Positions 33,132 to 60,588 of a DNA stretch of 64,000 nt are shown here, piece after piece; the stretch's first letter is position 1, and each line of letters opens with the position of its first letter. The notes under the pieces are model-generated. The model had not been told where the DNA came from. It did not search any database and saw only the letters and a program-made list of their open reading frames with translations. Origin of the DNA: Silvibacterium bohemicum. Its GTDB lineage: Bacteria > Acidobacteriota > Terriglobia > Terriglobales > Acidobacteriaceae. The stretch covers positions 372,001 to 436,000 of the forward strand of contig NZ_LBHJ01000001.1 of assembly GCF_001006305.1 (NCBI RefSeq). The letters are read 5' to 3'. A program made the translations under genes and the position numbers.

Positions 33132-33251
33132 GGGTGCGCCACATCTCGCGTCTGAGATGTGGGATTCCAATATGGTCATTGCGACCACGGATCAAGCGCC
33201 TGGACGGCCAGTCCTGCCCCGCGTCTGGATTTTCAGAGGTCGGGATACCGC
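33132..33251. repeat. Palindromic repeat, GGGTGCSCCACATCTC family, with 3' companion
   Basis: A hairpin with arms CACATCTC/GAGATGTG and loop GCGTCT (33132-33163) is followed by a companion segment GCGCCTGGACGGCCAGTC. The same order (hairpin, then companion) occurs near 38923-39015, and the companion alone forms the 3' end of plsC near 53946-53990. Confidence 0.75.
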
Positions 33252-38813: not shown

Positions 38814-39145
38814 ATCGAGGACATTGTCTCATCGCAGCAAGGCACGCCGCTGGCGCTCTTCCATCCGTTAATACTGTCCACGAGAACAACCGCGTTTTGA
38901 GCGGTTAGAAAAGCTCCAAAATGGGTGCCCCACATCTCGATTTTGAGATGTGGGATTCCACAATCGCTGTCACACCGCGGATCAGGCGCCGAAGGCGCAA
39001 CCGCCTGGACAGCCAGTCCCATCTCGCATCTGAGATGTGGGGAAAACGCATGCCGGTCCGAATACCCGATCTTCCATATCGGGGACATCCGTATCCACGA
39101 CGAACGCCGCAGCGATCCGGTTATGCCGGAGCGACTCGGCCCCGT
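38814..39145. repeat. Repeat-filled gap with two CACATCTC-type palindromes
   Basis: Hairpins at 38923-38953 (arms CACATCTC/GAGATGTG) and 39017-39041 flank the companion GGATCAGGCGCC...GCCTGGACAGCCAGTCCC. No gene is credible in the gap. Confidence 0.75.
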
Positions 39146-39955: not shown

Positions 39956-40626
39956 CGGGCTCCTTTTCGCAAACCTAGTTGCAAACTAGGGCGTTGTTGC
40001 TGAGCAGACGCGAGGGAAAGTCTACCAACCACTCTTTGAGCCTTGCTTTCCCGGCTATGACCGGTTAAGCAGACGGAAATTCTGTCCACTAGGTTTACAG
40101 GCTCACTGTAGAACTGCCATTTCATCCCCTGGGATCGGTTCTGAAATAGCCGGGTGCACGATTACTGACGATTCAACAATTTATTTCCATCTTCTACGTT
40201 TAAGAGGACTTCAATGCACGCTCTGATGCCCGAAGAATTCCCCGAGGATGTCCATAATTTGTTGAGATCTCCTGAACTCTCAATAATTAAGCACATTTTG
40301 TTCACGTGATCCGAATCCTTAACCATCCCGTCAATTGACCCGGCCCGCCTCTCCGGAGAAGCTGGCCCTGTGATCGACCGCCCTTCATTCACGAGCTCCC
40401 GCGGTAGGCGAGAAAAAATACTCGCATTCGCGTCCATCCAATTTGCGCCAATGAAACAACCGGAAAATCACAAAACAATTGTCATCCCGAGCGAAGCGAA
40501 ACGCAGCCGAGGGACCTGCAGTCAGCTCGCAGCGCGACCATTATCAGTCCGGCCGCAATAGTCGTAAGCGCCGGAACTGCCATGCTCGCCCCACGGTTGA
40601 TAAACTGAGGCCAATCGAGGGTCAAG
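39956..40626. other. Long gap with one doubtful ORF and one TGTCATCCCGA repeat
   Basis: AT-richer than its surroundings in the middle. A copy of the TGTCATCCCGAGCGAAGCGA repeat lies at about 40479-40529. The only open frame of note is 40162-40437 on the minus strand (listed separately). No RNA gene is recognisable. Confidence 0.55.
40162..40437 (-). CDS. Doubtful small ORF, unknown
   Basis: 91 residues, containing GSIDGMVKDSDHVNKMCLIIESSGDLNKLWTSSGNSSGIRACIEVLLNVEDGNKLLNRQ in its second part. The sequence is less GC-rich than nearby genes, and no ribosome site precedes the ATG. It may be a small acquired or decaying gene, or chance. No family is recognised. Confidence 0.25.
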   Translation of the reverse strand: MDANASIFSRLPRELVNEGRSITGPASPERRAGSIDGMVKDSDHVNKMCLIIESSGDLNKLWTSSGNSSGIRACIEVLLNVEDGNKLLNRQ

Positions 40627-42345
40627 TTGAACGTCTCAGTTGCGCGCCGAACCATCCCTCTCTGGATCGTCTTTCCCGCCATCTTCCTTGCCATCACCGC
40701 AGCGCACGGACCGCTTCTGCGCCTGCCCTATTACTGGGACGAAGCTGGCTACTACATCCCCGCAGCCTTTGACTTCTTCCGCACCGGCGCGCTCATCCCC
40801 TACAGCACGCTCTCCAACGCGCACCCGCCGCTCCCCGCCATTTATCTGACTCTCTGGTGGAAGCTCTTCGGCTTCTCGCCGCTGGTCACACGCATCGCCA
40901 TGTGCTTCATGGCGTCGATCGCGCTTACGGCAGTCTGGAAGATTGCGCTTCTCACCACAGCAAGAAACAGCGTCGCGTCCTTTACCGTACTGCTCACCGC
41001 CCTCTATCCGGTGTTCTTCGCGCAAAGCTCGCTCGCTCACGCCGACCTTACCGCCGCTGCCGCCAGTCTGTGGGCCATAGCGTTCCTGCTGCGGCGAACC
41101 AGCTCCGGCATATGGCTCTCCGCCTTCTGCTTTTCATTGGCGGCACTCAGCAAAGAAACAGCCATTGTCACGCCGCTAGCCCTGGCGCTGTGCGAGCTGC
41201 GAAAAGCACTTGGGCGATCCAAGGAAAATAGCGTCGCCTCCACCCAGGCGGCGGGTGCCCCAGGTCTCGCTTCTGAGACCTGGGATAACAGTCCCCGGGT
41301 GCCCCAGGTCTCGCGTCTGAGACCTGGGATACCTCCCCGCGAGGTGCCCAATACCTCGCGTTTGAGACCTGGGATCACCGCGGCCATTCTCTCTCTTCCA
41401 GTCCTCCCGCTCGTCCTCTGGTATCTCTACCACCGGCATCGCACCGGCTTCGTCTTCGGAAACCCCGAATACCTCCGCTACAACGCCGGAGCCACCCTCG
41501 ATCCGCTGCGCATTCTGCTCGCCCTCGGCCATCGCATCCTGCATATCACCGCGCACATGAACCTCTTCGTCCCCGTGCTGCTCATGATCGCCTGCATGCT
41601 GCTGCCTCCTTTAAAGGAGAGCGATGGCTCGGGGCGCGAGCGCATCTCCTTTGCCGATCAGGCCATCTTCTATGTCGTCATTGCCGCGAACATCCTCTTC
41701 TTTTCCATCCTGGGAGGAGCGCTGCTCACCCGCTATCTTCTGCCGCTCTATCCCCTGGTCATCCTGCTCTGCGTCAACACCTTTCGCCGCCGCTTCGAAT
41801 GGTGGCCCTCGCTGGTGGCCCTCAGCGCCGTGGCCTTCGTCGCCGGCCTCTTCGTCAATCCGCCCTATCGCTTTGCGCCCGAAGACAATCTCGCCTACGC
41901 CAACGTCATCCGGCTGCATCAGGAGGGCATCGCGCACATCGTCGACCATTACTCGCACGACACCATCCTGACCGCCTGGCCGGCGACCGACGAACTCAGC
42001 AAGCCGGAACTGGGCTACGTCTCGCAGCCCATCAAAGTAGCGGCCATCGATAACTTCTCCTTCGGCCAGATCCAGAAAGCGAAGCAAGAGCCCGAGGCCT
42101 ACTCCGTCGCCTTTCTCTTCTCGACCAAGTACGATCCGCCGCACCTGCTCATGAGCCTGGGACCGAAGAACGAACAGCTAGACCGGCGCTTCTTCGACTT
42201 CCATCGCGACCTGGAGCCGCAGACCGTCACCCGCATCCTCGACGGAGACATGGTCTGGCGCGCCCAGCGCAAAGGCCAGTGGGCCGCCCTCATACACCTC
42301 AACCGCGCCGCCGAAGCAGAGCTGCAACCGGTGATTCAACCCTAA
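40627..42345 (+). CDS. GT-C (PMT/ArnT-like) glycosyltransferase with in-frame palindromic repeats
   Basis: 572 residues, TTG start with GAGGG 5 bases upstream. About ten helices; the first loop has the acidic motif LPYYWDEAGYYIPAAFDFF, typical of Dol-P-mannose/ArnT-like enzymes that use lipid-linked sugars, and HPPLPAIYLTLWW follows. Between a cytoplasmic helix end (LGRSKENSVASTQ) and the next helix (AAILSLPVLPLVLWYLY) lie about 42 residues translated from three copies of the CAGGTCTC/GAGACCTG palindrome (41253-41377), read without a stop. The function is probably intact if the insert is a loop. Confidence 0.82.
   Translation: MNVSVARRTIPLWIVFPAIFLAITAAHGPLLRLPYYWDEAGYYIPAAFDFFRTGALIPYSTLSNAHPPLPAIYLTLWWKLFGFSPLVTRIAMCFMASIALTAVWKIALLTTARNSVASFTVLLTALYPVFFAQSSLAHADLTAAAASLWAIAFLLRRTSSGIWLSAFCFSLAALSKETAIVTPLALALCELRKALGRSKENSVASTQAAGAPGLASETWDNSPRVPQVSRLRPGIPPREVPNTSRLRPGITAAILSLPVLPLVLWYLYHRHRTGFVFGNPEYLRYNAGATLDPLRILLALGHRILHITAHMNLFVPVLLMIACMLLPPLKESDGSGRERISFADQAIFYVVIAANILFFSILGGALLTRYLLPLYPLVILLCVNTFRRRFEWWPSLVALSAVAFVAGLFVNPPYRFAPEDNLAYANVIRLHQEGIAHIVDHYSHDTILTAWPATDELSKPELGYVSQPIKVAAIDNFSFGQIQKAKQEPEAYSVAFLFSTKYDPPHLLMSLGPKNEQLDRRFFDFHRDLEPQTVTRILDGDMVWRAQRKGQWAALIHLNRAAEAELQPVIQP
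41253..41377. repeat. Three tandem palindromes inside a coding sequence
   Basis: Units start at 41253, 41297 and 41342, spacings of 44 and 45 bp. Units 1 and 2 have perfect 10-bp arms CCCAGGTCTC/GAGACCTGGG with loops GCTTCT and GCGTCT; unit 3 has a decayed left arm. They belong to the family seen in intergenic gaps at 33132, 38923 and 56234. Units 1 and 2 are read in different frames, so the protein sequence itself was not conserved between copies. Confidence 0.9.
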
Positions 42346-46107: not shown

Positions 46108-46709
46108 AGCCAGATCCCACGAAACCCGATCCCCTGCCTCGGCAACTGGCAGGGAAGCTCCAATCTCCAGCGAAGCTCCAATCCCCAGGAGAGCGCCAAT
46201 CCCCAGGAGAGCGCCGATCTTTAGGAGAGCGCCAATCTTTAGGAGAGCTCCGATCTATAGGGAAGCTCCAACAGGCTTGTCATCCCGAGCGAGCGAAGCG
46301 AGCCGAGGGACCTGCAGTCAGCCCACACCACCACCGAACCGGGTGCCCCACATCCCGCACTTGGGATGTGGGGTTTTTCGCCAAACACCCCACATCCAGC
46401 CTCTGGGACCTGGCAAAAACAGCCGGGTGCCCCATCCTTTGCGCGGACGTTGCGCAAAGGGTGGGAATCCACCAATCGGAATATCCCAAACCCAGCCTCT
46501 GGGATAGAGCACCGAAAGCATCGAAGCTCAGCGGGCAAACGAAGCGAACCGAAGAACCAATCCCGTTCCTTGAAGGGTACGGGCTTCAGCCCGTACGAAA
46601 AACTCCAGCCAGGAAACGGGCGTTAGCCCCTGACCGAACCGGGTGCCCCACATCCCGCACTTGGGATGTGGGGTTTTTCGCCGGACACCCCACATCCCGC
46701 CTCTGGGAC
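46108..46709. repeat. Composite repeat tract upstream of nfeD
   Basis: In order: seven 18-bp tandem units (46151-46276, e.g. AGGAGAGCGCCAATCCCC), a TGTCATCCCGAGCGAGCGAA element (46277-46320), a CCCCACATCCC palindrome (46341-46373) with a GGGACCTGGCAAAAACAGCC tail, a CCCATCCTTTGCGC hairpin (46425-46466), a TACGGGC-TTCA-GCCCGTA element (46571-46635) and a second CCCCACATCCC palindrome (46641-46673). One plus-strand frame remains open through all of it from 46104. Confidence 0.85.
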
Positions 46710-56162: not shown

Positions 56163-56373
56163 GCTCTCGCCACAATATCAGTTACAAATTCAAATTTTTT
56201 CGCTCAATCGACTCGTCATCCTGCCACAGAACCGGGTGTCCCACGTCTCGCATTTGAGACGTGGGATTAACGCGAATCCACTGCCGGGTGCCCCATCCTT
56301 TCGCGCAATTTGCGAAAGGGTGGGAGACCACCCAAATCCACACGAAGTGCCCGGATTCCGGATTTTCGGACGG
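56163..56373. repeat. Palindromic repeats between ldcA and mpl
   Basis: A hairpin with arms CCCACGTCTC/GAGACGTGGG (56234-56265) and another with CCATCCTTTCGC/GCGAAAGGGTGG (56286-56325). Each follows GGGTG. They separate otherwise collinear cell-wall genes and could reduce read-through. Confidence 0.8.
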
Positions 56374-58109: not shown

Positions 58110-58843
58110 TCATCCTCCTGGCTGCGGAAAGTAAAGACCTGCGCAATCGGCGCGGCTGACTTGAACGAAGCCAGCAGGCGCTTATGTACGCGGCTGGTCG
58201 CAGTCACGGAAAACGACAGCCTCTGTATCTCGCCCATTGATTCATCCTCGATGCTCGTGAGTTGGCGCTTCTCGCTGTCCATCGAGGCGAGAAGCGACAG
58301 CTTCATGTTCTCTGCATCCACGCCGCGCGCTTCATAGACCACCGTGTACGACTTGAGATTGCCCTCGCGCTCCAGCACTCCCACTACTTCCAGCACCACG
58401 ATCACCAGCACTGCGGACATCACCGCCGGCCCGTAAAGTCCAGCGCCGCAAGCCATGCCGATCGATGCTACGGCCCAGACCGTGGCCGCACTGGTCAGGC
58501 CGCTCACCCGGTCGCGATTGTGCAGGATCAGCCCCGCCCCCAGAAAGCCAATGCCCTGGACGACGTTCGATGCGATCTGTCCTTTATTGGTGCTGCCCTC
58601 GCCGGCGACGATGGCAGAGAGAAAGGTGAACAGCGCCGCGCCAAAGCAGATCAACAGGTTGGTCCGCACGCCCGAAGGCTTGTGGTGATATTCGCGGTCG
58701 ATGCCGATCACGCCGCCCAGCACCGCTGCCAGCAGCAACCGCCCGATGACGCCTCCGGTGAAGTGCATCTGCTGCAGATTGTTGAAGCTGAGCATGTGCC
58801 CGGTTTCCTGCATGGCGGCGGCGATATGGGCGAGAAACTTCAT
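58106..58843 (-). CDS. MgtC/SapB-family membrane protein
   Basis: 245 residues. Four or five helices; the family signature is clear: LLLAAVLGGVIGIDREYHHKPSGVRTNLLICFGAALFTFLSAIVAGEG and VVQGIGFLGAGLILHNRDRVSGLTSAATVWAVASIGMACGAGLY. The C-terminal cytoplasmic domain (about 165-245) is of the ACT-like type found in longer MgtC proteins. MgtC is linked to magnesium limitation and ATP synthase control in Salmonella; in free-living bacteria its role is unclear. Its start overlaps the upstream stop as ATGA, and its stop overlaps dapF. Confidence 0.88.
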   Translation of the reverse strand: MKFLAHIAAAMQETGHMLSFNNLQQMHFTGGVIGRLLLAAVLGGVIGIDREYHHKPSGVRTNLLICFGAALFTFLSAIVAGEGSTNKGQIASNVVQGIGFLGAGLILHNRDRVSGLTSAATVWAVASIGMACGAGLYGPAVMSAVLVIVVLEVVGVLEREGNLKSYTVVYEARGVDAENMKLSLLASMDSEKRQLTSIEDESMGEIQRLSFSVTATSRVHKRLLASFKSAAPIAQVFTFRSQEDE

Positions 58844-60588
58844 TTCTGGGTGATGCTACCATTCACGCCGTGCCGGTCAGAACGATAAATGCGTATGCAG
58901 GGTTGACCAGTCGAGCACACGATGTTGATCAGCGTCAGCCCCAGCGGATGCTCGGCTACGGCCTGCGCCACGCGATCTCCGTCGGAGGCGATCACATAAT
59001 CCGCTGCCCTCGTAGGATCCTTCAACGCCGGCGTCCACTCGTAGTAGTCCGCCTCGTTGATGGTGTGCTTTAACGCGATGCCTGCCCGCTGATAAGCTCC
59101 GGGATGTTCCGAGGTATAAGCCAGGATGGTGCTATTGGGCGGCAGCTCTTCGAGCGCCCGCGCATACGCTACCTCGAAGGGAATCCGTGTCCGCGAATTT
59201 GCAATTGCCTCGCCCATCACCAGCGGAGTCGCCCGCAACAGCACAGCGTCATTGGCCACCAGAAGCGCTATCACCACCCACGGCAGCGACGCGCCGACTA
59301 TGGGAAGCCACTTCTTCCACAGAGCCGGGTGCGCCACATCTCGCGTCTGAGATGTGGGGAAATTCTTTTCGATCAATACCATTAGCCATGCCACAAAGAA
59401 TGCCGGAAACAGCGCAAAGACCGGCAGCAATTCCATCCCGTAGCGCACGTTGTAGAACGAATGCGGCCACCATAGCGGGATGAAGATCGGCACCGATCCG
59501 TAGGCCACCGAGTACGCATAGAACGGCAGCGGAACCCACAGCAGCAGCGCCGGCAACACGCCCTTCCACTTGATGGCAGCAGCTACGGTGCCGGCAATCG
59601 AGAGCAGAAAGAGCAGGTTCGCGCAGCGAAGGACTGTCGCGCCCAACTCTGCCGCTTTCAGAAAATACAGCGCCGCCACCGGCATGCTGTGCCAGCCCGG
59701 ATAGTGCGGCGAGCCCGGTTTAGAGGTGCGCGCATCGATGGCTTTTGCGGAATACGGTCCGCGCATAAAATCCAGCGGATCGCCAAACTGCTTCGCGCAA
59801 TATCCAAACCACAGCAGCGGAGCCACCGCCACCATTGCCGTGAAGAGCACGAACGCTCCGCCCGCCTGCGATTGCCAGCGCTTGCGGCTGAGCATGGGCA
59901 GCAAGGCGATGCCCCACGCGAAGGCCGCGAAGATCCATCCGTCGTAGCGCGTGAAGACCGCACCCACAAGAACGGCTCCGGTCAAAGTCAGCAGCATCGA
60001 CGCCCGCTTGAACTCATCCGCGTCGAGCGCGCGTCTGTATTCGACCAGCAGCAGCGTCGTCCAGATCATCTCCGCCAGAAACAGCGGCTCGTTCATCGCC
60101 GTAGTCTGCATGTAGAGCAGCCCAGGATTCAGCGCGTAAAAAACCAGCGCTACCAATGAAGCCTGCGCCGTGAGCCACTGCCGCGCCAGCCGATAGATGC
60201 CGGCCGCGCCCAGCACATACGCGCCCATCGACGGAAACGCGCCGGCCAGTCCGGACTGCCACCATTCGAGTCGCCATACAAACGGGATCAGCAGCAGATG
60301 CGGCAACGGCAGCCACACCGAGCCCATCTGCCGGAAGCCCGGCTCGATGGAATCGATGATCCGCCGTGCGATCGCCAGATGCGCCACCGCGTCGCCATAG
60401 AGAAGCAGCAGGCTCCGCGAGTAACAATAGGAGAGCGCCAGCAGCGAGAGCAGCAGCACACTCCACGCCACCACAAAGCCTTCGGTGCGCAGTTGCAGCC
60501 GCTGCTGTTCGGCTTCGCTCAAGCTGGCGATATCCAGCTTCGCGCGTCGCGGCTTGGACGGTTTGTCGTTCTTAAGCTGCTTATTCAA
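58840..60588 (-). CDS. GT-C family glycosyltransferase-like membrane protein with one in-frame palindrome
   Basis: About 582 residues if it starts at the TTG at 60588, which overlaps the kinase stop by 8 bases; the start is uncertain because no ribosome site or ATG is near. About eleven helices; LLLYGDAVAHLAIARRIIDSIEPGFRQMGSVWLPLPHLLLIPFVW has the acidic first-loop layout of GT-C enzymes. NFPTSQTRDVAHPALWKKW in a cytoplasmic loop is translated from a CCACATCTC/GAGATGTGG palindrome (59327-59359). It is coupled to mgtC by an ATGA overlap. The sugar substrate is unknown. Confidence 0.78.
   Translation of the reverse strand: MNKQLKNDKPSKPRRAKLDIASLSEAEQQRLQLRTEGFVVAWSVLLLSLLALSYCYSRSLLLLYGDAVAHLAIARRIIDSIEPGFRQMGSVWLPLPHLLLIPFVWRLEWWQSGLAGAFPSMGAYVLGAAGIYRLARQWLTAQASLVALVFYALNPGLLYMQTTAMNEPLFLAEMIWTTLLLVEYRRALDADEFKRASMLLTLTGAVLVGAVFTRYDGWIFAAFAWGIALLPMLSRKRWQSQAGGAFVLFTAMVAVAPLLWFGYCAKQFGDPLDFMRGPYSAKAIDARTSKPGSPHYPGWHSMPVAALYFLKAAELGATVLRCANLLFLLSIAGTVAAAIKWKGVLPALLLWVPLPFYAYSVAYGSVPIFIPLWWPHSFYNVRYGMELLPVFALFPAFFVAWLMVLIEKNFPTSQTRDVAHPALWKKWLPIVGASLPWVVIALLVANDAVLLRATPLVMGEAIANSRTRIPFEVAYARALEELPPNSTILAYTSEHPGAYQRAGIALKHTINEADYYEWTPALKDPTRAADYVIASDGDRVAQAVAEHPLGLTLINIVCSTGQPCIRIYRSDRHGVNGSITQK
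59327..59359. repeat. Palindromic repeat inside a coding sequence
   Basis: GGGTGCGCCACATCTC, loop GCGTCT, then GAGATGTGGGG: nearly identical to the intergenic copy at 33132-33163. Read antisense by the glycosyltransferase gene it encodes FPTSQTRDVAHPA, without a stop or frameshift. Confidence 0.9.

Follow-up and report, generated by a model that had tools for sequence, protein, structure and literature searches.

The window, a stretch of 64,000 nt from a Silvibacterium-type genome, contains a reading frame at 40627-42345 that is open throughout and codes for a membrane protein of 572 amino acids (ORF list), and three copies of a dispersed palindromic element lie inside this gene. The features referred to below are listed here; the nhmmer E-values of the three units come from a search of 1.97 Mb of the source genome, using a profile that includes this gene's own copies.

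33133..33164, + strand: family copy outside called genes (pattern match C1:405133-405164, 1 mismatch)
38924..38955, + strand: intergenic family copy (pattern match C1:410924-410955, 0 mismatches)
40480..40519, + strand: second dispersed family (TGTCATCCCGAGCGAAGCG...), one copy upstream of the transferase gene, read in the sequence
40627..42345, + strand: GT-C glycosyltransferase gene, 572 aa, PMT_2 domain, ArnT-like fold; start codon TTG uncertain
41252..41290, + strand: palindromic unit 1, intact hairpin; frame +1 (GAPGLASETWD); E 1.3e-9; fold -20.8 kcal/mol
41295..41333, + strand: palindromic unit 2, intact hairpin; frame +2 (VPQVSRLRPGI); E 4.8e-9; fold -24.6 kcal/mol
41342..41377, + strand: palindromic unit 3, left arm decayed; frame +2 (VPNTSRLRPGI); E 1.7e-6; fold -8.9 kcal/mol
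46342..46373, + strand: family copy with a variant stem, outside called genes (regex match C1:418342-418373)
46642..46673, + strand: family copy with a variant stem, at the edge of a called gene (regex match C1:418642-418673)
56235..56266, + strand: intergenic family copy (pattern match C1:428235-428266, 1 mismatch)
59328..59359, + strand: one family unit, frame -3, within the second GT-C-like gene of the window (minus strand, 58840-60588)

The 572-aa protein carries a PMT_2 domain (PF13231, E 5.3e-10). When the predicted model was used as the query, the best Foldseek match among solved structures was ArnT (5f15; E 3.4e-7, TM-score 0.53), and the protein is therefore regarded as a glycosyltransferase of the GT-C type. 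The model was built with 40 aligned sequences and reached a mean pLDDT of 80.6 and a pTM of 0.82. A PHROGs search with the transferase gave no match, and neither did Rfam, at the gathering threshold, anywhere in the 64-kb window. W37-D38-E39 and the other columns that are invariant in the 40 sequences were intact in the window's transferase, and over 510 gap-free codons it had 7 unique residues among ten near relatives, versus 3 to 13 in the other nine. From its sequence the gene shows no sign of decay, the unique-residue test being one that cannot date the insert.

The initial annotation had described three hairpin repeats at a spacing of 44-45 within this gene, had assigned them to an intergenic repeat family, and had noted that they do not stop translation and that the reading frame differs between units 1 and 2. 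The repeats were recovered as direct copies of one palindromic family, spaced 44 and 45 nt apart, and the reading frame indeed runs through them. The description as hairpins held for units 1 and 2 and not for unit 3, in which the right arm is intact, the left arm is altered and most of the hairpin is gone. The difference in frame between units 1 and 2 was also found, but units 2 and 3 share one frame. In a comparison that made no use of the profile, unit 1 was 100% identical over 35 bases to a place on another contig (E 4e-11).

The intergenic character of the family was likewise borne out. The whole source genome (G000; 6.46 Mb in 25 contigs) contained 106 matches to a 32-base family pattern at ≤3 mismatches, and the reversed pattern, used as a control, gave 0. 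The same pattern matched 141 times in G001, 22 times in G005, 21 times in G006 and 0 to 4 times in five other genomes. A profile was then built from up to 67 copies found with the pattern, the transferase copies among them, and applied to a 1.97-Mb sample of the source genome, consisting of contigs C1 and C4 as a whole and of other parts picked because repeats had been seen there. Genes in this sample were called with our own codon model (1304 genes, 80% coding). At E ≤0.05 the profile gave 93 matches, representing 88 distinct units, of which 76 were intergenic, 5 were at gene edges and 7 were within five genes, an intergenic share of 76/88 despite the 80% of the sample called coding. For 74 intergenic units both neighbours were available; their spacers were unidirectional in 41 cases, convergent in 27 and divergent in 6, while the bases in spacers longer than 60 nt were 56% unidirectional, 15% convergent and 29% divergent; the intergenic copies favour convergent spacers and shun divergent ones.

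Frame and stem counts were based on 83 of the 88 units, the other 5 being dropped as not registrable. A variable pair in the stem covaried (CA/TG in 55, CG/CG in 10 and GG/CC in 3 of the 83), and the remaining 15 had rarer combinations, some of them mismatched. The consensus head CCGGGTGC precedes the stem CCCA, and the units are 36-40 nt long. With this length, the 106 matches and the 76 of 88 intergenic units, the family agrees with a REP in the broad sense, that is, a palindrome of 20-40 bp that is scattered in many copies, chiefly between genes. When units separated by under 250 nt were compared across the 1.97 Mb, the transferase alone had a spacing of 44-45 nt. Direct pairs of units 95 nt apart were seen at several other places in the source genome (C4:3188-3314, C12:1024959-1025085 and C9:46753-46879), and in these pairs one unit starts CCTGCCCC instead of GGTGCCCC, as if a dimer were a spreading form. 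The same sample contained 52 units of a second family (GTCATCCCGAGCG), 51 of them intergenic and 1 inside pheT, and a sister family with a TCCTTC stem, all 21 units of which were intergenic. The pheT gene (contig C4 of G000, L187:6311-8434, + strand) holds its unit in frame, with the peptide LSSRPERSEVEGPAVS; since the start of pheT is uncertain, this unit may sit nearer the true N-terminus than is apparent.

To return to the transferase, the loop between positions 188 and 261 was 74 residues long in the window's protein versus a median of 31 in 102 distinct sequences (the window's own counted), a gain of 43 residues. Excised as DNA, the site measured 312 nt in the window versus 174 or 177 in eight near relatives, a gain of 45-46 residues; a ninth relative was unmatched, and lengths alone were used in this comparison because the DNA alignment was badly gapped. 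The earlier figure was about 42 added residues. Loops of at least 45 aa occurred in 11 of the 102 sequences, the window's included. The alignment of these sequences had been set beforehand as the refuting test, and it contained no conserved peptide of this sequence at the insert site in the orthologues, so that a conserved peptide was rejected as an explanation. The initial annotation had also placed the insert in a loop between helices and had suggested structure prediction as a check. In the model, residues 210-247 form a coil between helices 177-209 and 248-255, with a pLDDT of 47-51 at residues 211-240 and of 86-97 at 181-200 and 251-270, which agrees with that placement; the end of the first helix, residues 201-210, was also weakly modelled (pLDDT 61). 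The loop with the insert follows the sixth predicted membrane helix of the transferase, and helix counting would make it a cytoplasmic loop, remote from the conserved WDE motif.

As the orthologues show, other repeats have entered this loop elsewhere. In G045, which belongs to another genus, the orthologue (locus L041) holds an 87-nt segment in this loop that gave 16 match rows in its own genome, itself included. The orthologue in G059, from yet another genus (locus L044), holds a 95-nt segment with 58 match rows, which include the segment itself and some of which are two strands of one place. Both inserts self-fold, and neither showed a special likeness to the window's units (the score was reached by 64 and 172 of 200 shuffles, respectively). 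Their likeness to each other was weak (score reached by 9 of 200 shuffles), and these two may therefore be related. The L041 insert also has 21 of 21 bases in common with L009, the locus holding the window's stretch upstream of the gene, and a repeat of the same type as the copy at 40480..40519 lies inside the G045 orthologue. Inserts were searched in their own genome for 3 of the 11 long-loop sequences (the window's own, L041 and L044). Among the loci compared, the insert of L040 matched three times in loci from other genomes, at best with 97% identity over 34 nt, which suggests that it is a repeat, and that of L102 matched, besides orthologues, the transposase locus L318 (27 nt at 93%). The L114 insert matched orthologues alone, and for L032, L033, L036, L048 and L051 nothing else matched among these loci. 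The orthologues L114:1275-1475 and L048:2062-2256 were also noted for having this loop lengthened by about 30 residues.

The seven intragenic units in the 1.97 Mb were distributed over the transferase (three), the second GT-C-like gene, mutS2, purK and murI, the last three being named by NCBIfam models TIGR01069, TIGR01161 and TIGR00067, all above cut-off. The second GT-C-like gene scored 25.1 bits with PMT_2, just under the cut-off of 26.1, and the peptide of its unit was present in 0 of 20 other orthologues aligned, some of which, most notably L309, have different residues at this place. In purK, a segment of approximately 15 residues was missing in all 9 other orthologues, two of which were 1-3 residues longer there than the rest, and at the DNA level this was a clean 45-nt insert, missing in 6/6 same-genus orthologues. 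Comparison with this empty site gave no clear target-site duplication of the kind expected of a MITE. The mutS2 unit is part of a longer stretch that was missing in 16 of 16 others, although four of these carried additional residues of their own. The murI site was variable among 14 sequences with the length hardly altered, and a replacement, not a simple insertion, is therefore possible.

The in-register frames +1, +2, +3, -1, -2 and -3 were open in 90, 96, 11, 92, 82 and 98% of the 83 units, respectively, and in 62 to 67% of shuffled units. By agreement of the host-gene peptides with the translated consensus, frame +1 is used by transferase unit 1 and mutS2, +2 by transferase units 2 and 3, -1 by murI, -2 by purK and -3 by the second transferase, so that the host genes use all five mostly open frames and leave the mostly closed +3 unused. 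Since five genes read the element in five frames, no single peptide has been selected. All 7 intragenic units were open in the frame used, a result favoured by our homemade gene caller, which recognises open frames only and will therefore undercount frame-breaking insertions. We also looked for genes split by a unit, but no pair of neighbours resembled the halves of one gene in the scan, which covered the neighbours of 5 of the 43 units with same-strand neighbours, and the reading of broken genes was rejected on this scope. The five came from the tightest spacings, with C4:151883 and a pair of units at a single locus passed over; one neighbour protein had no Pfam match and one had a sub-cut-off match only.

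The source genome has two Y1_Tnp matches. Of these, L026:1462-1932 is intact and represents a REP-associated tyrosine transposase, or RAYT (NF047646, 105.6 bits versus a cut-off of 80), flanked by inverted hairpins that start GCGGGTGCCCCA and end GTGGGA. The second match, L027:1450-1716 on the minus strand, seems truncated, with an 88-aa ORF and the remainder in another frame. Among the 12 Y1_Tnp loci of the genus, five (L026, L318, L322, L324 and L327) were bordered on each side by inverted hairpins that have the head GGGTGCCCCA, at ≤1 mismatch, and a TGGG tail, the base after the tail being A, T or G. The two hairpins of a pair have a common stem, and about three stem types were seen over the five loci, as if the stems had changed with the transposase and the head had stayed. 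Paired hairpins were missing at the other seven loci: L325 had a hairpin on one side only, near the gene, L323 a distant head-like match only, and L027 a match inside the coding sequence, and no head-bearing hairpin was found at L319, L320, L321 and L326. None of the 12 loci had a transposase flanked by the exact family stem CATCTCG, the intact L026 RAYT carrying a TCCTTTCGC stem, and in G001, with its 141 family matches, the Y1_Tnp locus was without such a head within about 1500 bases. The window's family has the head and tail of the RAYT-flanking hairpins but other stems. This likeness points to mobilisation of the family by a RAYT, perhaps in trans, as the likeliest, if unproven, step.

REPs inside coding regions have already been described in many bacteria (Di Nocera et al. 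2013, PMC3733652), including grouped intragenic copies with a coding length of 43 to 82 residues and the recB genes of two Xanthomonas species, in which different REPs occupy nearly the same position. The family described here resembles the intragenic GTAG/CGTC REPs of that study in being composed of short interspersed palindromes that are mostly intergenic, in mostly convergent or unidirectional spacers, and sometimes in frame inside genes, in hosts that include DNA repair and tRNA enzymes, and perhaps in a RAYT association such as is reported for the GTAG type. It differs in its head, GGGTGCCCCA with GTGC adjoining the stem, in which neither tag is present, and the consensus head does not have the unpaired tag at the hairpin end that defines this super-family. 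The text of PMC3733652, its supplementary list and figures aside, names no acidobacterial intragenic case. The same paper describes TIRYT transposases of Acidobacteria, which are also Y1 transposase genes of this phylum with flanking inverted repeats, some of them self-complementary. The motif GGGGWSAS reported there for some of these repeats was not seen when our head was read by eye on both strands (TGGGGCACCC on the other strand), and the family, which may be identical with the TIRYT type, is thus set apart by the motif description. In the open-licence literature, supplements aside, we found no report of intragenic palindromes in Acidobacteria.

Rickettsia palindromic elements (RPEs) lie in frame within Rickettsia genes, and a guanylate kinase that bears one is reported to be translated and active, with a changed substrate affinity (PMC2229807, PMC3767692). 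The initial annotation had compared the transferase insert with these elements. In the way of working the likeness is real: in both cases palindromes lie in frame inside conserved genes, the family's intragenic units keep the frame and are missing in orthologues, and pheT holds a palindromic insert in R. japonica (PMC2229807, PMC3767692) and, from the second family, here. It does not extend to membership, since RPEs are elements of 100-150 bp found in Rickettsia and Wolbachia (PMC2229807, PMC3767692), whereas the units here are REPs of 36-40 nt with a RAYT-type head in an Acidobacteriaceae genome of the Silvibacterium type. RPE-4 and RPE-6 have themselves been filed as CGTC REPs (PMC3733652).

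We consider it likely, with a probability of roughly 85%, that REP-like elements, probably spread by a RAYT, survive in a tolerant loop of this transferase as translated spacers. The three units are copies of the dispersed palindromic element of this genome. A RAYT (HUH) transposase with single-stranded hairpins as its substrate would mobilise this element, one copy of which would have been inserted into the loop behind the sixth predicted membrane helix, where local duplication or repeated insertion at a spacing of 44-45 nt may have given rise to three copies. The frame runs through the insert because the element is usually stop-free in five of six frames and the added length is a multiple of three. 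Provided that the insert is translated in the cell, the protein would be longer by about 43 residues, in the form of a disordered loop. The insert would be neutral, and its persistence would be owed to the tolerance of the loop and not to any function of the peptide. That site tolerance, and not the peptide, explains retention was also the view of the initial annotation, and it is upheld by the five frames in five genes and by the other dispersed repeats at the same loop in two other genera; these relatives argue that the loop is a safe landing place.

It is improbable that the insert is translated and useful, with selection maintaining an arginine-rich loop for the binding of a partner or the tuning of the transferase. 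The gene without decay signs and the 11 long loops of at least 45 aa among the 102 sequences (the window's included) would fit such a function, but the long loops share no sequence when aligned, five genes use five different frames of the same element, unit 3 is decaying, and no structure is modelled there. The decay of unit 3, which is without most of its hairpin, and the small number of intragenic copies (7 of 88) also speak against a role as RNA, in which the hairpins would be kept because they delay ribosomes at a helix boundary or control how stable the mRNA is. We think this very unlikely, even with hairpins of -20.8 and -24.6 kcal/mol and a preference of the intergenic copies for convergent (27 of 74) over divergent (6 of 74) spacers.

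A membrane protein could suffer from an insert of 129-138 nt, and the transferase gene might accordingly be a pseudogene or a recently damaged copy that has kept its frame by chance. Yet the 572-aa frame is open, W37-D38-E39 and the other invariant columns of the 40 sequences are kept, and unique changes are not in excess, by a test that cannot date the insert, and a damaged gene has still less to commend it than a role as RNA. The least credible explanation is translational bypassing, in which the ribosome skips the hairpins and the segment is missing from the protein. Two strong hairpins in the mRNA would suit it, but bypassing needs neither open frames nor multiples of three, and yet 7/7 intragenic units were open, an outcome that the gene caller favours.

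A doubtful but more far-reaching idea is that palindromes of different origin are repeatedly drawn to the same Acidobacteriaceae protein loops because the DNA there is a preferred landing site for HUH transposases, for instance single-stranded or hairpin-prone DNA of the lagging strand. If the loops were indeed preferred landing sites, the elements would continually supply housekeeping enzymes with new loop sequence and would not be chance survivors.

With the probable survival of translated spacers in a tolerant loop, this Acidobacteriaceae case joins a kind that has already been published, the in-frame intragenic REPs and the Rickettsia elements. What it adds to these is the set of frames in which one element is read, the clean empty site in purK, and the presence of other repeats at the same loop in two other genera. 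The R. japonica paper leaves open whether differing palindromes at one orthologous site are hotspot insertions or one diverged insertion (PMC3767692). In the loop described here, the window's family is unlike the two other repeats, over three genera, which favours separate insertions. With a free-living genus of several genomes, the purK empty site and a transposase with matching ends, the cost that such inserts impose on housekeeping enzymes may be studied.
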